Source: Selenomonadaceae bacterium
Lineage (GTDB): Bacteria; Bacillota; Negativicutes; Selenomonadales; Selenomonadaceae
NCBI GenBank assembly: GCA_030523645.1
Contig: JAUNIB010000002.1
Span: 186,001-250,000, forward strand
DNA length: 64,000 nucleotides
Direction of reading: 5' to 3'
Part shown: positions 56,272-64,000 of the stretch, in pieces
Layout: each line of letters begins with the position of its first letter
Numbering within the stretch: the first letter of the stretch is position 1
The notes under the pieces: model-generated
Databases searched by the model: none
The model's input: only the letters and a program-made list of their open reading frames with translations
What the model was told of the DNA's origin: nothing
Position numbers and translations under genes: made by a program

Positions 56272-56300
56272 GGGATTACCCCCGCGCGTGCCGGGCGCAC
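56272..56300 (-). CRISPR. degenerate terminal CRISPR repeat
   Basis: These 29 bases match the array repeat at 27 positions (changes in the GCGGGG and GTAC parts). It sits 539 bases beyond the last regular repeat, so the array has either been interrupted or lost units between them. Confidence 0.8.
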
Positions 56301-56839
56301 TTCACAAGTAACGGTGTCAGCGGAATGACCAGCTTGTCACACAGTCTTTCGATAGCCCACTGGTTGACCTGTCGCATATCCTGTGACTTGTGCGTGTCTT
56401 TGTTATTGGTGTAGCCGGGATTGTCAGCAGAGTATCTTAGCCCAACTTCGGGAGCTTTCGGCACAAGCCCTTTGTAATACTTATCATAGTAATCATCAAG
56501 AGCCATACTGTAGGCTTTTAGGATTTCGTGCTTGTCGGTTACAAACTCGGATATTTCTCCGACAACATATCGTTTACCATTTCCGTTCTTTGTTCCTCCG
56601 TCAGCTCCGGACAGGCGATTGCCGCCAATTCCAGCATTTCTTTCCTCGGCAGCGGCTTCGCCCCTGTCATTTTGCTCATTGCCTCTCGTTGCTGTGCGTT
56701 CATCCGGTATGCGGCTGTCATACTCAAAGCACCTCCATCCGCACATTATTTGTATTGCCATTTGCCTAACTTGCGGGGCATCTAGTGGAAGTCCTGCTAT
56801 CCGCAAATTGTTAAACGCATAGTATTTGAGTCTCAGTGC
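56301..56839 (-). other. 540-base block inside the CRISPR array, with short ORF remnants
   Basis: Between the degenerate repeat and the regular array lies a block of non-repeat DNA. It carries, on the minus strand, a 62-codon ORF (56539-56727, GAKPLPRKEMLELAA..CPELTEEQRTEM). It also carries an overlapping frame running to 56276 (ALDDYYDKYYKGLVPKAPE..) whose last residues and stop are encoded by the CRISPR repeat itself. A GGAGG site precedes the first. I do not recognise either. They look like pieces of a phage or mobile gene rather than intact genes. Confidence 0.4.
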
Positions 56840-57113
56840 GGGATTACCCCCGCGCGTGCGGGGCGTACTTCATGCCGACAATGGTCTGCTGGGACTGCTC
56901 GGGATTACCCCCCGCGCGTGCGGGGCATACGACAGCGTCGTTTTGCCGACCCCGCCCTTCCAGGGATTACCCCCGCGCATGCGGGGCGTACGAGGGCGTT
57001 ATATTCAGAAGTGCCGCTGTTGAGGGATTACCCCCGCGCGTGCGGGGCGTACTTTTTCGCAGCCAGGTAAATCTGCTCCGGATCGGGATTACCCCCGCGC
57101 GTGCGGGGCGTAT
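56840..57113 (-). CRISPR. type I-E CRISPR array, five repeats and four spacers
   Basis: Repeats of 29 bases lie at 56840-56868, 56901-56930 (one extra C), 56963-56991, 57024-57052 and 57085-57113. On the plus strand they read GGGATTACCCCC...GCGGGGCGTAC, with an inner palindrome CCCCGCGCGTGCGGGG. All four spacers are 32 bases, typical of type I-E. Transcription is leftward from a leader at 57114-57250, so the newest spacer is 57053-57084. Repeat variants occur toward the distal end and in the leader-proximal copy (TAT instead of TAC). Confidence 0.97.
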
Positions 57114-57133
57114 TCCAATTTCAAGAGTATGGA

Positions 57134-57207
57134 AGACAAAAAGAACTTGACGAGCGACCGCAAGAGTCCTCGAAAGAGGTTTCCCATGCGGGTTGCATTG
57201 CAAGTTC
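57134..57207 (-). repeat. inverted repeat in the CRISPR leader transcript
   Basis: AAGAACTTG and CAAGTTCTT lie about 55 bases apart in the leader, between its promoter and the first repeat. On the minus strand the second arm runs into TTTTTGTC, so this could act as a weak terminator or a protein-binding site. Confidence 0.45.
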
Positions 57208-57217
57208 TTCGTATGTA

Positions 57218-57246
57218 ATAGTAAAGATTTTACTTGAAAATGTCAA
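57218..57246 (-). promoter_or_regulatory. promoter of the CRISPR array in the leader
   Basis: On the minus strand TTGACA (57246-57241) and TACTAT (57223-57218) are spaced by 17 bases, giving pre-crRNA starting near 57211, about 100 bases before the first repeat. Confidence 0.7.
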
Positions 57247-57298
57247 GAATTGGATTCCACTCACGTGCCAAACGGATTGGAACTAAGATTCATGTATA

Positions 57299-57327
57299 TT
57301 GACATTTCTATTAATTGGCAGTACACT
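57299..57327 (+). promoter_or_regulatory. promoter of the CRISPR-side RNA with operator-like palindrome
   Basis: TTGACA (57299-57304) and TACACT (57322-57327) are spaced by 17 bases. The perfect palindrome TGGCAGT-AC-ACTGCCA (57316-57331) covers the -10 box, as a repressor operator would. It diverges from the array promoter. Confidence 0.65.
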
Positions 57328-57333
57328 GCCACA

Positions 57334-57425
57334 TAGTGCCCCCTCCGACAACAGAACTCGGGTTGTCGGTAGTATTAGCGAACCGTGCGAACACTTCCGC
57401 TAAGTTGGGGGTATTTTTTTATTTC
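57334..57425 (+). ncRNA. candidate small structured RNA beside the CRISPR array
   Basis: A transcript of about 90 bases can be folded by eye into a three-way junction. The closing helix is CCCCC (57339-57343) with GGGGG (57407-57411). Hairpin 1 is CCGACAAC/GTTGTCGG (57345-57352, 57362-57369). Hairpin 2 is TTAGCG/CGCTAA (57375-57380, 57398-57403) with an inner GTG-CGAA-CAC. The closing helix is followed by a run of seven T. It has its own promoter and lies between the CRISPR leader and an orphan repeat. It contains no convincing ORF and matches no RNA family I recognise. Confidence 0.6.
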
Positions 57426-57443
57426 TTTTTCTACTTGTTCACA

Positions 57444-57472
57444 GGGATTACCCCCGCGCGTGCGGGGCGTAC
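57444..57472 (-). CRISPR. orphan CRISPR repeat next to cas2
   Basis: A full-consensus 29-base repeat stands alone, 330 bases from the array and 53 bases from the cas2 stop. No second repeat pairs with it at spacer distance. It lies on the cas2 side of the RNA gene candidate, so leader and RNA gene are enclosed between repeats. Confidence 0.92.
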
Positions 57473-57525
57473 ACTAAAAAATCCCGTAGTATCGGCGCCT
57501 GCAATTGTAAATCCCTATTTTTTAT

Positions 57526-58425
57526 TCACTTTTCTTTTAGCACATCATATACCGCTTTTAACGCTTTGCAATCGCTCAAAGCTCTATGATTCGGCTTTTC
57601 GACCACTTTGAATTCCTCGACAATACTGCTAAGTTTTTTCTTTCCGCCGCCTGCACCGGTGACTTTAGCGTATATTTCCATGGTATCCAAAAATTCATTG
57701 GTCAGCTGCGGCTGGTTATTCACCATAAATGCGTGATTTAAAAATCTTAAATCAAATCTTATGTTATGCCCGATAATGACATCATGTCCAATAAAATCTC
57801 TTATTTCCTCTGTTAAAGAATTTATACTGCATTCTGCTTCATCTAGCATATCATTAGTAATCCCCGTTAGGGTTTCTATGGCTCTAGGGATTTTCTTACT
57901 GGGCTTGACTAATCTCTGAAATTCTTTTACCACCTCGCCCTTACGCACTCTCAGCATTCCTATTTCTATGATTTCAGTTTTCAGTTCACTTAGTCCTGAT
58001 GTTTCTATATCAATAATCACATAGTTTTCCGGATATGTATTGGAGACATTTCCTCGCTCAACCTGAGAGAGAGACTTTGTTTTACCCAATTTTCTCCACT
58101 TTGCAGCCTTGCTGAATCCCAGCCTCTTATCATTACTTTCTACAGGCTTAGGCTTGCTCGGCTGCAAGACCAGTTTCAATCCATCAAAATCGACAATTTC
58201 ATTCTCACTGTTATGGATACAAAAATTCATGTGCTGTTCATTATTTGCACTATAGACCAAAGTAGCCCGGCCATCTTTGATGTTATCCGTTATTCTTTCC
58301 CACAGGCGTTCTCTGACTCTCGCACTCACTCTGCCAACAAACACTCCCGTATTTATTTCCAGCAGCCATTTTGTCAGGTCTCCCCGCAGCGATACAGGAC
58401 AATTTGTTAATGATATGACAATCAT
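57526..58425 (-). CDS. cas2: Cas2e fused to a DnaQ-like exonuclease
   Basis: 299 residues. Residues 1-90 are Cas2e (MIVISLTNCPVSLRGDLTKW, GVFVGRVSARVRERLW), the structural partner of Cas1 in spacer integration. Residues about 130-299 are a DEDDh 3'-5' exonuclease: IDIETSG (D, E), GHNIRFDLRFLNHAF (D) and HRALSDCKA (H, D). Such Cas2-DnaQ fusions are known in some type I-E systems, where the nuclease trims prespacers before integration. All five catalytic residues are present. It overlaps cas1 by 4 bases and is the last gene before the array. Confidence 0.95.
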   Translation of the reverse strand: MIVISLTNCPVSLRGDLTKWLLEINTGVFVGRVSARVRERLWERITDNIKDGRATLVYSANNEQHMNFCIHNSENEIVDFDGLKLVLQPSKPKPVESNDKRLGFSKAAKWRKLGKTKSLSQVERGNVSNTYPENYVIIDIETSGLSELKTEIIEIGMLRVRKGEVVKEFQRLVKPSKKIPRAIETLTGITNDMLDEAECSINSLTEEIRDFIGHDVIIGHNIRFDLRFLNHAFMVNNQPQLTNEFLDTMEIYAKVTGAGGGKKKLSSIVEEFKVVEKPNHRALSDCKALKAVYDVLKEK

Positions 58426-59408
58426 TCAGATACCTCTACGGATAATGCTAATTCCTCCCCATCAGGCGATATATCTTTACCGTATGATATTCCGTTCTTA
58501 ACAGTGCCGCTCTTCTCATCCCAAAGATCTACTATATCACTAAATGTAACATCTATATCTTCTGAGTCCGTCAGCAGATAATGCAGGTCTTTTACAATTC
58601 GTTCTAGCAGATGTTTTTCAGATATCAAATTCCTGACCGACCTCCGCATTTCTCCGGATATGTCTTCAAGATTTTCTGAAGCTATCTTAAACGCTGTAGG
58701 AATCACGAATTCAGCCTTGTACAAATCCGCAATATCGTAGACAAATGAGCGTTCATGGCCTGTGTGAACAAAGCCCAGTCCGGGAGAGCATCCCAATGCG
58801 ACAATTACGCTGTGCGCCAACCCATATAGGCAAGCTGTTCCGGCAGACAACGCCTGATTCACTGCGCTTCCGCCTTCAAAATCGTCCGGGTCGTATTCTC
58901 TTCCCGTCCATTCCACATTGTATTGCTTTGCACTATTGCGATACACTCTGCGAACTCTGGCTCCTTCTTTTCCTCTTAGCTGCTGCATGGTCAAGTCGGA
59001 AACATCATCATCCGGGAAACGCATCTGGTACATCTTTCTGGCCACCGCCAGCCGTGACCGCACATTTGTCACCAAAGCTGCCTGAGTTGTCAACAGGGAA
59101 GATGAGTGCGTAAGCGGACTTCCCGATGCATAGTAACGCACTCCCCTTTCCCCTGTCCAGATTACAGTCACCCCGACATTTCCAAGAAGCTCCATCGCTC
59201 TGTGTGTAATAGAAGTCCCCGGGCCAAGCATAATGACACTTAGCGATGCTGCCGGTGCATTAACAGTTCCTCTCTCGTCCGTTATACTCACAGCACTATC
59301 ATTCTTATTGACCAGACACCGCTCAACATACAGGAAGGATATTCTCTCCTTGATTTGCGGAAGTTCCTGTATTTCAGCCTTTTTGGCACCCACATAATCC
59401 TTTTTCAT
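58422..59408 (-). CDS. cas1: Cas1e integrase
   Basis: A metal-dependent integrase inserting new spacers; 328 residues from ATG 59408, which overlaps the cas6e stop (ATGA). Type I-E features are ISFLYVERCLVNKNDSAV, ITHRAMELLGNVGVTVIWTGE and the metal-binding residues around AVNQALSAGTACLYG, GLGFVHTGHERSF and DIADLYKAE. The C-terminal tail after the Cas1 core is acidic. Confidence 0.95.
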   Translation of the reverse strand: MKKDYVGAKKAEIQELPQIKERISFLYVERCLVNKNDSAVSITDERGTVNAPAASLSVIMLGPGTSITHRAMELLGNVGVTVIWTGERGVRYYASGSPLTHSSSLLTTQAALVTNVRSRLAVARKMYQMRFPDDDVSDLTMQQLRGKEGARVRRVYRNSAKQYNVEWTGREYDPDDFEGGSAVNQALSAGTACLYGLAHSVIVALGCSPGLGFVHTGHERSFVYDIADLYKAEFVIPTAFKIASENLEDISGEMRRSVRNLISEKHLLERIVKDLHYLLTDSEDIDVTFSDIVDLWDEKSGTVKNGISYGKDISPDGEELALSVEVSE

Positions 59409-60022
59409 ACTCTGCCCAATGTGAGCAAACCGCATCCATAGGATTTTGCCCTGCCGATACCGTTTGTCAATGCTTTCTTAAACATATCCTCATCCGTGAT
59501 TGTTAAAATTCCTTCGTAATCGGCTGTGTGCAGAGTTACCTTCTTGCCGTTTCTAAAAAACCTTTTCACCCCACGCTGCACGACAGAAAAGGAATCGAAA
59601 GAGACGCCGATGGTATCTGCCCGCTTTCTCAGCCATTCCTCCTGATATTCTATCGTCACATGGGGGACGACCTTGCCCCTTTTCCCGGGTTCCACATTGA
59701 GGCTGACTACAGGATTGGCACAAAGTCGGAAGCGGTATCGAGCACCTGCCTTCAGCGAGTCCAGCAGTCCCTGATAGTCCCTGCATTCGCCTGTGTCACC
59801 ATCATATCCGAATTGCTTCACAAGCTCGGCAAAATCAGGCTTAGCCTGACTGAGCAGCAGTAAATATGGCTGATTCTGAAGATAATCAAGCCGCCAGAGC
59901 TTCCTGCTCTGATCATCATCGGCAAAGCATCCCTCTACTGATGCATGAATAACCTGCGGGGAGCTGAGAAACTTAATTGTATTCCTTTTGTTATTGTTTA
60001 TTCTCACTCTTGAAAGGTACAT
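59405..60022 (-). CDS. cas6e: Cas6e crRNA-processing endoribonuclease
   Basis: Cleaves pre-crRNA in the repeat stem-loop and stays bound in Cascade. 205 residues from ATG 60022 (GGAGGG five bases upstream). MYLSRVRINNNKRN opens the double ferredoxin fold, VIHASVEGCF carries the candidate catalytic His, and the glycine-rich loop GIGRAKSYGCGLLTLGRV closes the protein. Confidence 0.93.
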   Translation of the reverse strand: MYLSRVRINNNKRNTIKFLSSPQVIHASVEGCFADDDQSRKLWRLDYLQNQPYLLLLSQAKPDFAELVKQFGYDGDTGECRDYQGLLDSLKAGARYRFRLCANPVVSLNVEPGKRGKVVPHVTIEYQEEWLRKRADTIGVSFDSFSVVQRGVKRFFRNGKKVTLHTADYEGILTITDEDMFKKALTNGIGRAKSYGCGLLTLGRV

Positions 60023-60023
60023 T

Positions 60024-60740
60024 CTATCCCTCCAAAATCGCAAACGGGTCATGCTCTGTATTCCTGCATTCCCCCACCGGGTATTCATCTCTACAGACTG
60101 CGCTTATCAGAACCTTTTCCCGCACCACATCGCGATAGCCGTACCGCCGCCTGACAGGATTGAAGCTGACCGGCACATCATGTACAGAATAGCCCGTCTC
60201 TCCGTCTACAGCATCTCTCATGATTTCCAAATAGGCAAGGTTTTTCCGGGGCGCTGATTTCCTGTACCACTGGGCGGCAATCCAAGGCTCTTCCGCCAAA
60301 GCCTGCCCCAAATTCTTTTCACGCATACCTAGAGAAACGCGGCCGGAGGCAGGACAGGAGCGACGGCCTAAATACAAAGGGAAGGCAGGATGGCTCAATG
60401 CCTCATCTATCTCCTGCAAAAACTGAGTCTCTCCCTCCAGTCCAACCAAAAAGGCCGCGTCATATAAGTAGTATCTGTTGGTTACCCAACTGCTATTTTG
60501 TGCCTCGGAATGTACCATGTGAAAGTCTCTGCCCAGCTTGCCTACCTGGTCAATCCTGACGCCAAACTTCATGCCATCAAATACATCGAGTGGTTCATCT
60601 CTGCGCATCCCCATAGCCGCGGCAAGCATACCAATAACACCGCTGCGGGTTGGCTCGGTATGAGTGAGTCTGTTGTCAAACATACTCTCCGCTCCCCAGG
60701 ACTGCATTGGTGCTGCCAGTCGTAACAGCAATGTATTCAT
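60024..60740 (-). CDS. cas5: Cas5e, Cascade subunit
   Basis: Binds the 5' handle of crRNA in the type I-E Cascade complex; 238 residues. Typical Cas5e motifs are LLLRLAAPMQSWG at the start, TEPTRSGVIGMLAAAMG, and PLYLGRRSCPASGRV. It sits between cas7e and cas6e with 1-4 base gaps. Confidence 0.93.
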   Translation of the reverse strand: MNTLLLRLAAPMQSWGAESMFDNRLTHTEPTRSGVIGMLAAAMGMRRDEPLDVFDGMKFGVRIDQVGKLGRDFHMVHSEAQNSSWVTNRYYLYDAAFLVGLEGETQFLQEIDEALSHPAFPLYLGRRSCPASGRVSLGMREKNLGQALAEEPWIAAQWYRKSAPRKNLAYLEIMRDAVDGETGYSVHDVPVSFNPVRRRYGYRDVVREKVLISAVCRDEYPVGECRNTEHDPFAILEG

Positions 60741-60744
60741 AGCC

Positions 60745-61902
60745 TTACTCCTGCGCCATTACGGCAAAGTATTTCTGCAGATTTTCTTCCATTGAGGCAT
60801 ACAGGGTTGCCATGTTTGTCTTTTCTCCGTGCCCTTCAAAGCCAATCGCCCATGCCATAGCCGGAGCTGCCCCATAGTCATCATAAACCTTGTTTGCATA
60901 TTTGGTCAGCCGGTCAACGGAGGACTGCGAGTATCCCTTGTCACCCGCTTTAACCGGCATTTCAAATGCTCCAACAAGGTTTATCGGCTGGTCTGTCCGC
61001 AAAGTTACCAGTACAGCTTCGGGAAGAGTACGATTGGCAAAGGAATTCTGTTTCCCTGTAGGCATAGAGGTGACAAAGGCTTTGATAAATTCATTAACCG
61101 CCTTAACGGTTATCTCCGCTTCGCCGCCCAGTTCACGGTAAAGCTCATGGACTGCTACGGTTGCATATCTGTACAGTGTTGCAGAGTTAAACTCCGTAAC
61201 ATCAATCATGGCTGCGCCGGCAGTTCCTTCCTCTGCCATGTCGTCCAGCGCCGTAAAGTAGTCATATTCATTATCTACTCTGTGTGTGGAGATGCTGTGG
61301 GCAATCTGTGAACATGCGTCTGAGTTAAAATCCGGGTTGCTCGCCATCATGCGCCCGAACAAAGCAATATCTACGCTATGATGGTCTTTTACATACTTAT
61401 GTACCTCTGATTGCATCTCCTTCTTCTCATCCGATGATATCTGTTTCTTTTTCAAATTTTCTTTATTATTTATAGCAAATTCTGCTAACTTGTATGCCTG
61501 GCCTGCTCCAATAAAGAACAGTGCATCTAATTCATTAGTATCTTTATCCAGTTTAATTTTCTCATCTTTTTTTGCTCCCTTTCTTACAAAGAAACCTTCT
61601 ACGAGTGCTTTTGCTAAAGCTACTGATTCTTCTGCTCCCAACGAATCCTCAATTTTCTCTATATTTTGTGCAATCAAATCCACAACTTTTTTCGTTCGTA
61701 AACCCAGCTCTGATTCCTGAAAATTATCCGTGAGTTTATATCTCACAGCCCTTTTCCAACTCTGTGAAGATACTCTGGCACGCTGTACGCCCCCGTATAC
61801 TGCCGTCTTGGGGCTCCCGGTGTCATCGCGGTTGATGCAGCTCGGCGGTACAGTCTGAATAACATGTATATCTACATAAATACGATTCTTCTTTTCCATC
61901 AT
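60745..61902 (-). CDS. cas7e: Cas7e, Cascade backbone subunit
   Basis: The repeated backbone protein coating the crRNA; 385 residues. Family motifs are VDIHVIQTVPPSCINRDDTG, GGVQRARVSSQSWKRAVR, and ALFGRMMASNPD with the following DAC. ATG 61902 shares a base with the cse2 stop (TAATG), and a second ATG follows directly. A Lys-rich stretch around 130-170 is slightly expanded relative to E. coli CasC. Confidence 0.94.
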   Translation of the reverse strand: MMEKKNRIYVDIHVIQTVPPSCINRDDTGSPKTAVYGGVQRARVSSQSWKRAVRYKLTDNFQESELGLRTKKVVDLIAQNIEKIEDSLGAEESVALAKALVEGFFVRKGAKKDEKIKLDKDTNELDALFFIGAGQAYKLAEFAINNKENLKKKQISSDEKKEMQSEVHKYVKDHHSVDIALFGRMMASNPDFNSDACSQIAHSISTHRVDNEYDYFTALDDMAEEGTAGAAMIDVTEFNSATLYRYATVAVHELYRELGGEAEITVKAVNEFIKAFVTSMPTGKQNSFANRTLPEAVLVTLRTDQPINLVGAFEMPVKAGDKGYSQSSVDRLTKYANKVYDDYGAAPAMAWAIGFEGHGEKTNMATLYASMEENLQKYFAVMAQE

Positions 61903-62477
61903 TAATCTTCCTTTCTGCTTTCCATATAATAATCTCTGCCCCATGACAGCAGAACATTTCTCCGGCTTTCTTCTGTCTGTACTCTATATAAATCAAAGGC
62001 AAACCCCGGATAGTCCAGCGTAAGCTTTTCCCTTTTGCACAGCTTGATAAGGCTTCTCGCATGCACAGACAGCTCCGTCATGTCTTTGGCAGAAAGCACC
62101 TTGTTAAATCGTCTCTGCACTGCCTCTGCATCACCGGGCTTCCGCAGCACCAGCTTTCTTATCATGTGTCCAAAGGAGTTGCGATTGCTGACTGCATCAT
62201 CATCCTCCTGCAAGCCGCTGCTGACGCAGCTATCAATTCCCTGTTGATGCATTGCATAAAGGGTGATAGCCGTGTACATTGCCTTCTCTATTTTTCTCTC
62301 GGTGTCACCGTAGTCGCTTATGGTTTCATCCGGCAGAACAAACCCCAGCAAGTCCGGCAATTCACCCATGTCTTTGCCTACGCCTCTCCTTAGCTGAGCC
62401 ATTACTGCCCTTGACTCTTTAAGCTGCATTATCTTTGCACGCATATTCTTCAGGATTCTTTCTTTCAGCTTATCCAT
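61902..62477 (-). CDS. cse2: Cse2 (Cas11e), Cascade small subunit
   Basis: A helical small subunit of 191 residues that stabilises the displaced target strand. It shows AVMAQLRRGVGKDMGELPDL near the start, ITLYAMHQQG and SFGHMIRKLVL, all typical of Cse2. ATG 62477 is preferred over the GTG four codons upstream because GGAGGT is then 10 bases away. The gene overlaps the cas8e end by 8 bases. Confidence 0.92.
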   Translation of the reverse strand: MDKLKERILKNMRAKIMQLKESRAVMAQLRRGVGKDMGELPDLLGFVLPDETISDYGDTERKIEKAMYTAITLYAMHQQGIDSCVSSGLQEDDDAVSNRNSFGHMIRKLVLRKPGDAEAVQRRFNKVLSAKDMTELSVHARSLIKLCKREKLTLDYPGFAFDLYRVQTEESRRNVLLSWGRDYYMESRKED

Positions 62478-64000
62478 TTTCTGCCCCACCTCCCAATTCT
62501 TTCACTACACTTCCTATGAATACTCGATGCGCCGTAAAGACATCCATGCCTCCTTCTCTTATATAAATATTATTTACACCACAGTCGTTCACTAAGTCAT
62601 CACCAATTCTCAGCAAAACACTTTTGGCTATATTCAGCCATTCCTGTATTTTATCAGCGACTTTATCCTCGTTTGCATTGATTGACAGCAGCCATTGCCT
62701 AAAATGACTGTTTAATTCTGCATATCCTTGTTCTCTGGCCTCTTTCCTTGCTCTATCTCTTATCTTTTTCTTATTTCCCTTTGTCTCTTTCTTTACCTTG
62801 TTAGCAGAATAGCCGTCTATTAGTACTATCCTGGCTGCAAGATTACCTAATTCCTCAACAGCTTTGTCAACCACCCCTAACGCTATCACTATTTCCAAGA
62901 CCCATCTTTTATTAAACGATTCAATCAAATCCGCACTTATATCCAATGTATCTTCTACATAATCCTGAATCATCTTCGTAGCACTTTTACCCTTGAAGTG
63001 TGCGCCTATCATTTTCAGTCGTATAGTACCGGAAACGATTCCTTCATCTTTGAGTATTTTTTGCCAGTATACAACTCCCGGCATCAGTACATCTTCATTC
63101 TCACCAGTCCCCAGCAACGAGGAAAATTCCCTCCACATTTGTTTCTCCGGATCAGGTTTCCGTGGGATAAAGCCAATTTTTTCATTACGTTTCCATCCAG
63201 TCATAGTCTCATTTATAAGAATTGCTTTCTCTGCTTCGCCAAAATAGTCTCCCATAGTTGAAAGATACCCTACGACCTTACCATTTTGTCGTTTTAATAG
63301 AATCCTCCTTGACTGCATAGTCAAGAGTTCTTTCTGTGCTCTGGGTTGTGCAATATGATTTTCAATTATACCGCATACAGGGGTTTCCCAAAATGCTCCT
63401 TCAGCCACCCGCCCATCGGCAAAGATTTCGTCCCACTGGTCAACAAGCACGAAGTTCAGCATCAGTGTCTCAAAAAGGCTTTTTCCTTCAACTAGAATTA
63501 GGCCAAGTTGCCCTAGATACCCTACACCTTTTGGAGTTGGATTTTTTGCTGCATTATCATCAAATCCGTTAAGATGGAGCAGCCACCGTGCCGCTTCTGC
63601 ATAAGACAAAGAACTTTGTCCTTCTCCTATTCTCATTGGTGCCAACCTTGATTTGTGCTCACTTTGAAACAATTCACCAATCAATCTCGCTACAGGTTTA
63701 ACATTTTTTTCTTTTCCTGAGTTATTTTCTTTTGCCTTTTTATCGGAACTGTCCATTGCCTGACGAATATTGGCTAACTGATAAAAGGGCGTCTCGGGAT
63801 GAAAGAGCCAAAACCGCTCTCTATACTCTTCCAAATATTGCTCAATGACTTCATACGGAAATTTTTTGTTCTCCCATAGGGCTTTCCAAAGCTCTACCGC
63901 ATCATCCCTATCCTCGATATCATCGGTCACAAATGCTGCATGCATAACCGCCAACAGCAGCCTCATAACCGCAACATCCTGAGTCGGCAGTTCTCCCGCT
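62470..64000 (-). CDS. cas8e: Cas8e (Cse1) large Cascade subunit, 5' partial
   Basis: The PAM-recognising large subunit that recruits Cas3. The frame runs out of the window: before the first Met at 63966 it continues as GELPTQDVAV, the conserved Cse1 stretch, so the true start lies beyond base 64000. Visible motifs are MRLLLAVMHAAF, WLFHPETPFYQL and YLGQLGLILVEGKSLFETLMLN. It is the first Cascade gene here; cas3 would be expected just outside the window. Confidence 0.94.
   Translation of the reverse strand, partial: AGELPTQDVAVMRLLLAVMHAAFVTDDIEDRDDAVELWKALWENKKFPYEVIEQYLEEYRERFWLFHPETPFYQLANIRQAMDSSDKKAKENNSGKEKNVKPVARLIGELFQSEHKSRLAPMRIGEGQSSLSYAEAARWLLHLNGFDDNAAKNPTPKGVGYLGQLGLILVEGKSLFETLMLNFVLVDQWDEIFADGRVAEGAFWETPVCGIIENHIAQPRAQKELLTMQSRRILLKRQNGKVVGYLSTMGDYFGEAEKAILINETMTGWKRNEKIGFIPRKPDPEKQMWREFSSLLGTGENEDVLMPGVVYWQKILKDEGIVSGTIRLKMIGAHFKGKSATKMIQDYVEDTLDISADLIESFNKRWVLEIVIALGVVDKAVEELGNLAARIVLIDGYSANKVKKETKGNKKKIRDRARKEAREQGYAELNSHFRQWLLSINANEDKVADKIQEWLNIAKSVLLRIGDDLVNDCGVNNIYIREGGMDVFTAHRVFIGSVVKELGGGAENG

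Follow-up and report, generated by a model that had tools for sequence, protein, structure and literature searches.

A structured small RNA family absent from Rfam, with a member lodged between the repeats of a type I-E CRISPR array in Selenomonadaceae

Introduction

In CreTA, a small RNA gene with its own promoter lies beside CRISPR repeats, which can be degenerate; the RNA is short and rare-codon, and a CreT-like toxin requires a guide matching its promoter (PMC8501985). Racr RNA anti-CRISPRs and solitary repeat units likewise feature a small RNA expressed from a promoter close to a lone repeat, in settings related to phages (PMC10651486). Foreign DNA also enters CRISPR-Cas loci as insertion sequences in cas genes, with possible damage to immunity (PMC10359306). 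Ordinary bacterial sRNA genes with intrinsic terminators, of the kind collected in Rfam, have a promoter of their own, a compact fold and a U-tract.

Here we analyse a small RNA gene from a Selenomonadaceae bacterium, in a 64,000-nucleotide stretch (the window) of contig JAUNIB010000002.1. Like CreTA, it has its own promoter and lies beside CRISPR repeats, but no guide seed-matches that promoter, most copies of its family are not near CRISPR, and the family is a long structured fold conserved over species. It resembles Racr in being promoter-driven and near a repeat, in a family with phage-related contexts, but it stops short of the repeat, whose orientation is opposite, and shows no repeat mimicry. 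As in the insertion-sequence work, foreign DNA appears to sit in a CRISPR locus where it may damage immunity; in this case, however, the insert has no transposase, lies between two repeats and holds RNA genes. With ordinary sRNA genes the RNA shares its promoter, length (about 90 nt), compact fold and U-tract, and differs in its absence from Rfam 15, its patchy accessory distribution and its position between CRISPR repeats in two genomes.

Results

Architecture of the array

The CRISPR-Cas locus of the window is organized as follows.

57526 to 63966, minus strand: type I-E genes cas2 (DEDDh-fused), cas1, cas6e, cas5e, cas7e, cse2 and cse1, identified with Pfam
57473 to 57525, minus strand: true CRISPR leader (about 55 bp) between cas2 and repeat 1, from alignment with L004 and L005
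57444 to 57472, minus strand: first, leader-proximal repeat, from repeat positions
57114 to 57443, strandless: 330-bp insert occupying the first-spacer position, with both RNAs inside, from repeat positions and gap lengths
56840 to 57113, minus strand: remaining regular array of five repeats and four spacers of 32-33 nt, from repeat positions
56301 to 56839, strandless: second large insert, of 539 bp, ahead of the degenerate last repeat at 56272, from the repeat layout

L004 and L005, two loci from relatives within the family, have cas2 followed by a short leader ending in GGGATTTTTTAGT, then the first repeat and a normal array. The junction, GGGATTTTTTAGT followed directly by GT, is identical in these loci and at the repeat 57444-57472 of the window. 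The true leader is therefore 57473-57525, and repeat 1 separates it from the RNA. The initial annotation had placed the RNA between the leader and cas2, boxed in by repeats; the flanking repeats (57444-57472 and 57085-57113) stand, whereas the leader-to-cas2 position does not, since the leader lies beyond repeat 1. The cas2 gene itself (57526-58425) is fused to a DEDDh exonuclease domain, as seen with Pfam.

Read in the crRNA direction, the gaps between repeats measure 330, 32, 32, 32, 33 and 539 bp. The ends of the 330-bp insert, read in the window sequence alone, show no clear target duplication. It may have entered as an unusually long Cas1-Cas2 capture, by recombination between repeats of two arrays, or by insertion into a spacer. 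The 539-bp insert matched nothing in Pfam, PHROG or the phage and viral collections, and none of it is clearly structured; it holds a minus-strand ORF of 176 aa that matches no family. The window is not unique in carrying a large inter-repeat insert, since 6 of 63 other I-E arrays have one (590-1477 bp), some with small gene pairs. By eye, small complete genes can be read in large inserts at L086 (9680-10325), L081 (9968-11359), L106 (9624-10036) and L064 (8081-11014); the ORFs of L086 read like an antitoxin-toxin pair, and L064 has partial toxin-like ORFs.

A small RNA gene and a divergent RNA candidate in the 330-bp insert

57299 to 57327, plus strand: sigma-70-like promoter TTGACA-N17-TACACT, 10/12 to consensus, with same-spacing promoters in other copies
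57316 to 57331, strandless: inverted repeat TGGCAGT-AC-ACTGCCA over the -10 box, read from the sequence, with a putative function
57334 to 57420, plus strand: small RNA gene, three-way junction plus U-tract, from fold z, homologues and covariation
57414 to 57420, plus strand: seven-T terminator tract of this RNA, read from the sequence
57218 to 57246, minus strand: divergent promoter TTGACA-N17-TACTAT, 10/12 match
57138 to 57211, minus strand: second RNA candidate with terminator, fold z = -3.9

The promoter that had been described for the plus strand is present, with TTGACA at 57299-57304 and TACACT at 57322-57327, and so are the three-way-junction fold and the run of seven T. The junction spans 57335-57415 and consists of a closing helix (57335-57343/57407-57415), a hairpin of 8 bp (57345-57352/57362-57369) and one of 6 bp (57375-57380/57398-57403). 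The stretch 57299-57430 folds with -40.7 kcal/mol (z = -3.5), a value equalled by none of 200 shuffles. In this fold the inverted repeat at 57316-57331, a perfect 7 bp, gives an extra hairpin; it is a possible operator of the promoter. With a predicted promoter and intrinsic terminator of its own, the element reads as a structured, standalone sRNA gene. No repeat-like sequence occurs inside 57334-57420; repeats are confined to the sites given above.

The view that the gene was unrecognised is borne out by Rfam 15, in which nothing reaches the gathering threshold for this RNA (best E = 3.2, chance level). Elsewhere in the window, 232-286 matches SpF59_sRNA (68.4 bits), an Rfam family described from Streptococcus.

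For the minus-strand candidate (57211-57138), searches for a family gave simple hairpins or weak matches and no convincing homologues. Pairing between the plus and minus RNAs of the insert is no better than in shuffles. Leader read-through would be predicted to form the terminator of the minus RNA before spacers 2-6 and so cut them off.

A conserved fold supported by covariation

BLAST searches of the family genomes (queries 57330-57425 and 57111-57440), of plasmids (57116-57520) and of phages (57111-57440) returned short AT-rich matches only; relatives came to light with covariance models alone. R1, a model built from the single RNA sequence in the window, recovered full-length copies from 8 further genomes of the family, nine in all, with E values between 3e-11 and 8e-6. 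Of the 26 pairs in alignment A5, which has 9 rows, 21 show double-sided changes; a 3-bp helix within the second hairpin has no covariation support. A refined model, R3, added copies in five further genomes, one of them outside the family, along with second copies in G035 and G061. The final 16-row alignment keeps 96.9% of pair cells and shows double-sided changes in all 23 pairs, whereas none of 500 shuffles comes near and slid partners pair in 37-56%. The initial annotation would have been overturned by stems that do not covary; across these 16 copies they do.

The 16 rows were chosen with a structure model, which biases them toward pairing. The covariation nevertheless counts, because the first copies came from a single sequence, because unpaired motifs are also conserved (AGAA..CG, GCAGUAG and GRACG..CGA) and because promoters, which lie outside the model, are enriched. 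A sigma-70-like promoter at fixed spacing (9/12 or better) precedes 8 of 17 copies, against 0.41 expected; copies L161, L164, L199, L202 and L203 lack a recognisable one. The probability of a chance fold of unrelated DNA is vanishingly small: promoter- and terminator-like matches are common by themselves, but homologues and covariation refute this explanation. We conclude with strong support that the window RNA belongs to a previously undescribed, structurally conserved family with compensatory changes. No ORF is conserved within it.

Another reading is a small mobile palindromic element, or a bidirectional terminator, that lacks any RNA function. Many copies do have an A-tract before and a T-tract after the closing helix, and they lie tail-to-tail with neighbours in a scattered distribution. 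A terminator needs only one helix, however, and here three covary; the loops and linker are conserved, promoters are present, and each genome has only one or two copies. A pure terminator or palindromic repeat is therefore inadequate, since it leaves conserved loops, promoters and low copy number unexplained, and we regard this explanation as very unlikely.

Among 299 genomes spread over the phylum there was no further confident member, and no copy turned up in the phage, plasmid and viral collections. The genome searches score the first candidates per genome only, so absences in them are soft. Several candidates were set aside: short R1 and R3 matches of 40-60 nt (L140, L144-L147 and others), which are simple hairpins; G170, G001, G514 and L141-L143, which are too weak; and the viral-contig pattern matches L171, L172, L217 and L218, which are not family members. 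We make no claim for a loop-loop kissing interaction, as its pairing, judged by eye, is inconsistent between copies.

Relationship to CRISPR loci

The family touches CRISPR repeats at three loci: the window, L200 with two copies, and L165. At L200 (genome G061) each copy has its own promoter, and the copies are interleaved with decayed I-E-like repeats; the genome of the window and G061 are the two with copies between repeats. At L165 a tandem pair sits next to an array with I-C-like genes, some 20 bp away from its last repeat, and Cas10 lies further out. Apart from the window, then, 2 of 14 loci are within about 35 bp of a repeat. CRISPR arrays are estimated to make up well under 1% of such genomes. 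At that share, chance placement of the copies beside repeats is unlikely, by a count made post hoc.

Other inter-repeat gaps at L200 (8055-9796) are occupied by further units of a promoter plus a hairpin, with several distinct folds among them. The same repeats recur elsewhere in G061 (L216, 12443-12869), where a 73-aa ORF lies between them.

The initial annotation suggested a role in cas expression, array transcription or adaptation. Such a dedicated regulator might act antisense to pre-crRNA or in trans on cas mRNA, and the opposite orientation of the RNA inside the array would suit it, as would the L200 and L165 copies that likewise touch repeats. A cas or CRISPR regulator would be expected in related I-E loci, yet a search of 80 such cas loci with the single-sequence model R1 came back empty, so conservation there is unsupported, as is an I-E accessory RNA. 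The close relatives L004 and L005 have no copy in their leaders, which lead directly into normal arrays, and for at least 11 of the 15 loci the several kb read are free of CRISPR repeats and cas genes. With most relatives in loci without CRISPR, we consider a dedicated regulator rather improbable; a link to CRISPR as such may exist, given the three loci at repeats.

Neighbours of the family in other genomes

The contexts of the copies are scattered and non-syntenic, and they come from a minority of genomes. In L160, L162, L163 and L201, the RNA lies tail-to-tail, 3′ end against 3′ end, with a phage polyvalent gene that closes with a PBECR1-type nuclease part, an assignment made by Pfam for L201 and by a shared ..KTWLVTNF end for the other three. 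In L165 and L166 the RNA is divergent from a PcfJ/Sel1 protein gene, and a third PcfJ-like gene lies 1.7 kb from a copy. The neighbourhood of the L166 copy includes an array and genes for Csm6, Cas2 and Cas1; at L164 an SspH-like gene, a resolvase and one for a PcfJ-like protein all fall within 7 kb. GmrSD accompanies the RNA at L198, Mrr at L202 and HsdS at L203, and the L167 copy occurs with a YhgA-like gene. At L161 and L199 the neighbours show no clear link. As a plain listing of loci, these neighbours suggest that the RNA belongs to the accessory genes of phage and defence regions.

The PcfJ-like plus Sel1 proteins near the RNA and CRISPR or defence genes are about 720 aa long (L165 8698-10911, L166 6476-8650, L164 10686-12833); those of L164-L166 have no PADLOC match.

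Such neighbours bear on whether the RNA could be a CRISPR-held, CreT-like toxin, or an RNA that serves PBECR1, PcfJ or another toxin-like or defence protein as partner or antidote. The tail-to-tail PBECR1-type genes at four loci and the divergent PcfJ-like genes at two would fit such a role, and at L200 a copy takes its promoter from the sequence that follows a repeat. Against it, the 7 guides of the window array match RNA promoters no better than shuffles in a search for a CreA-like guide with a seed match beside a PAM (8/10 for the best seed, which 20% of shuffles also reach, uncorrected for the 7 guides); the RNA has no conserved ORF, and no single protein partner is common to all loci. We regard a toxin or toxin-partner RNA as unlikely.

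Discussion

Taken together, these data favour an accessory sRNA that spreads horizontally, acts in trans and belongs to phage and defence regions; it is lodged in the window array without being a fixed component of type I-E CRISPR-Cas. We assign this reading a probability of roughly 0.6. The family, its fold and covariation, the promoter enrichment, the array position and the scattered contexts are direct observations; expression, trans action, mobility and the polar effect on spacers 2-6 are what we infer from them.

Under the accessory-sRNA reading, plus-strand 57334-57420 would be a self-contained gene that travels between genomes with phage and defence regions, a mobility suggested by the patchy distribution and the neighbours. 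Its rigid three-way junction may expose two conserved loops, in trans, to a partner that is either protein or RNA. In the window, a 330-bp piece with the plus RNA and the divergent RNA candidate would have come to fill the first-spacer position, where the plus RNA would be transcribed antisense to pre-crRNA. The terminator of the minus RNA (57150-57138) would halt leader transcription ahead of spacers 2-6, probably as a side effect.

A broader and speculative extension, which we think doubtful, is that I-E-type arrays serve as docking sites for sRNA cassettes: units bounded by repeats, with their own promoters and terminators, borne by mobile elements, that would silence older spacers and regulate or sabotage immunity. 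The array location of the RNA in the window is unusual, and any meaning attached to it is tentative.

The results add a strongly supported structured RNA family that is missing from Rfam, together with a model for finding more members. Because it repeatedly accompanies phage nucleases, restriction systems and CRISPR arrays, the family is a candidate player in phage-host conflict. RNA genes between repeats in two genomes suggest that CRISPR arrays can carry genes besides spacers.
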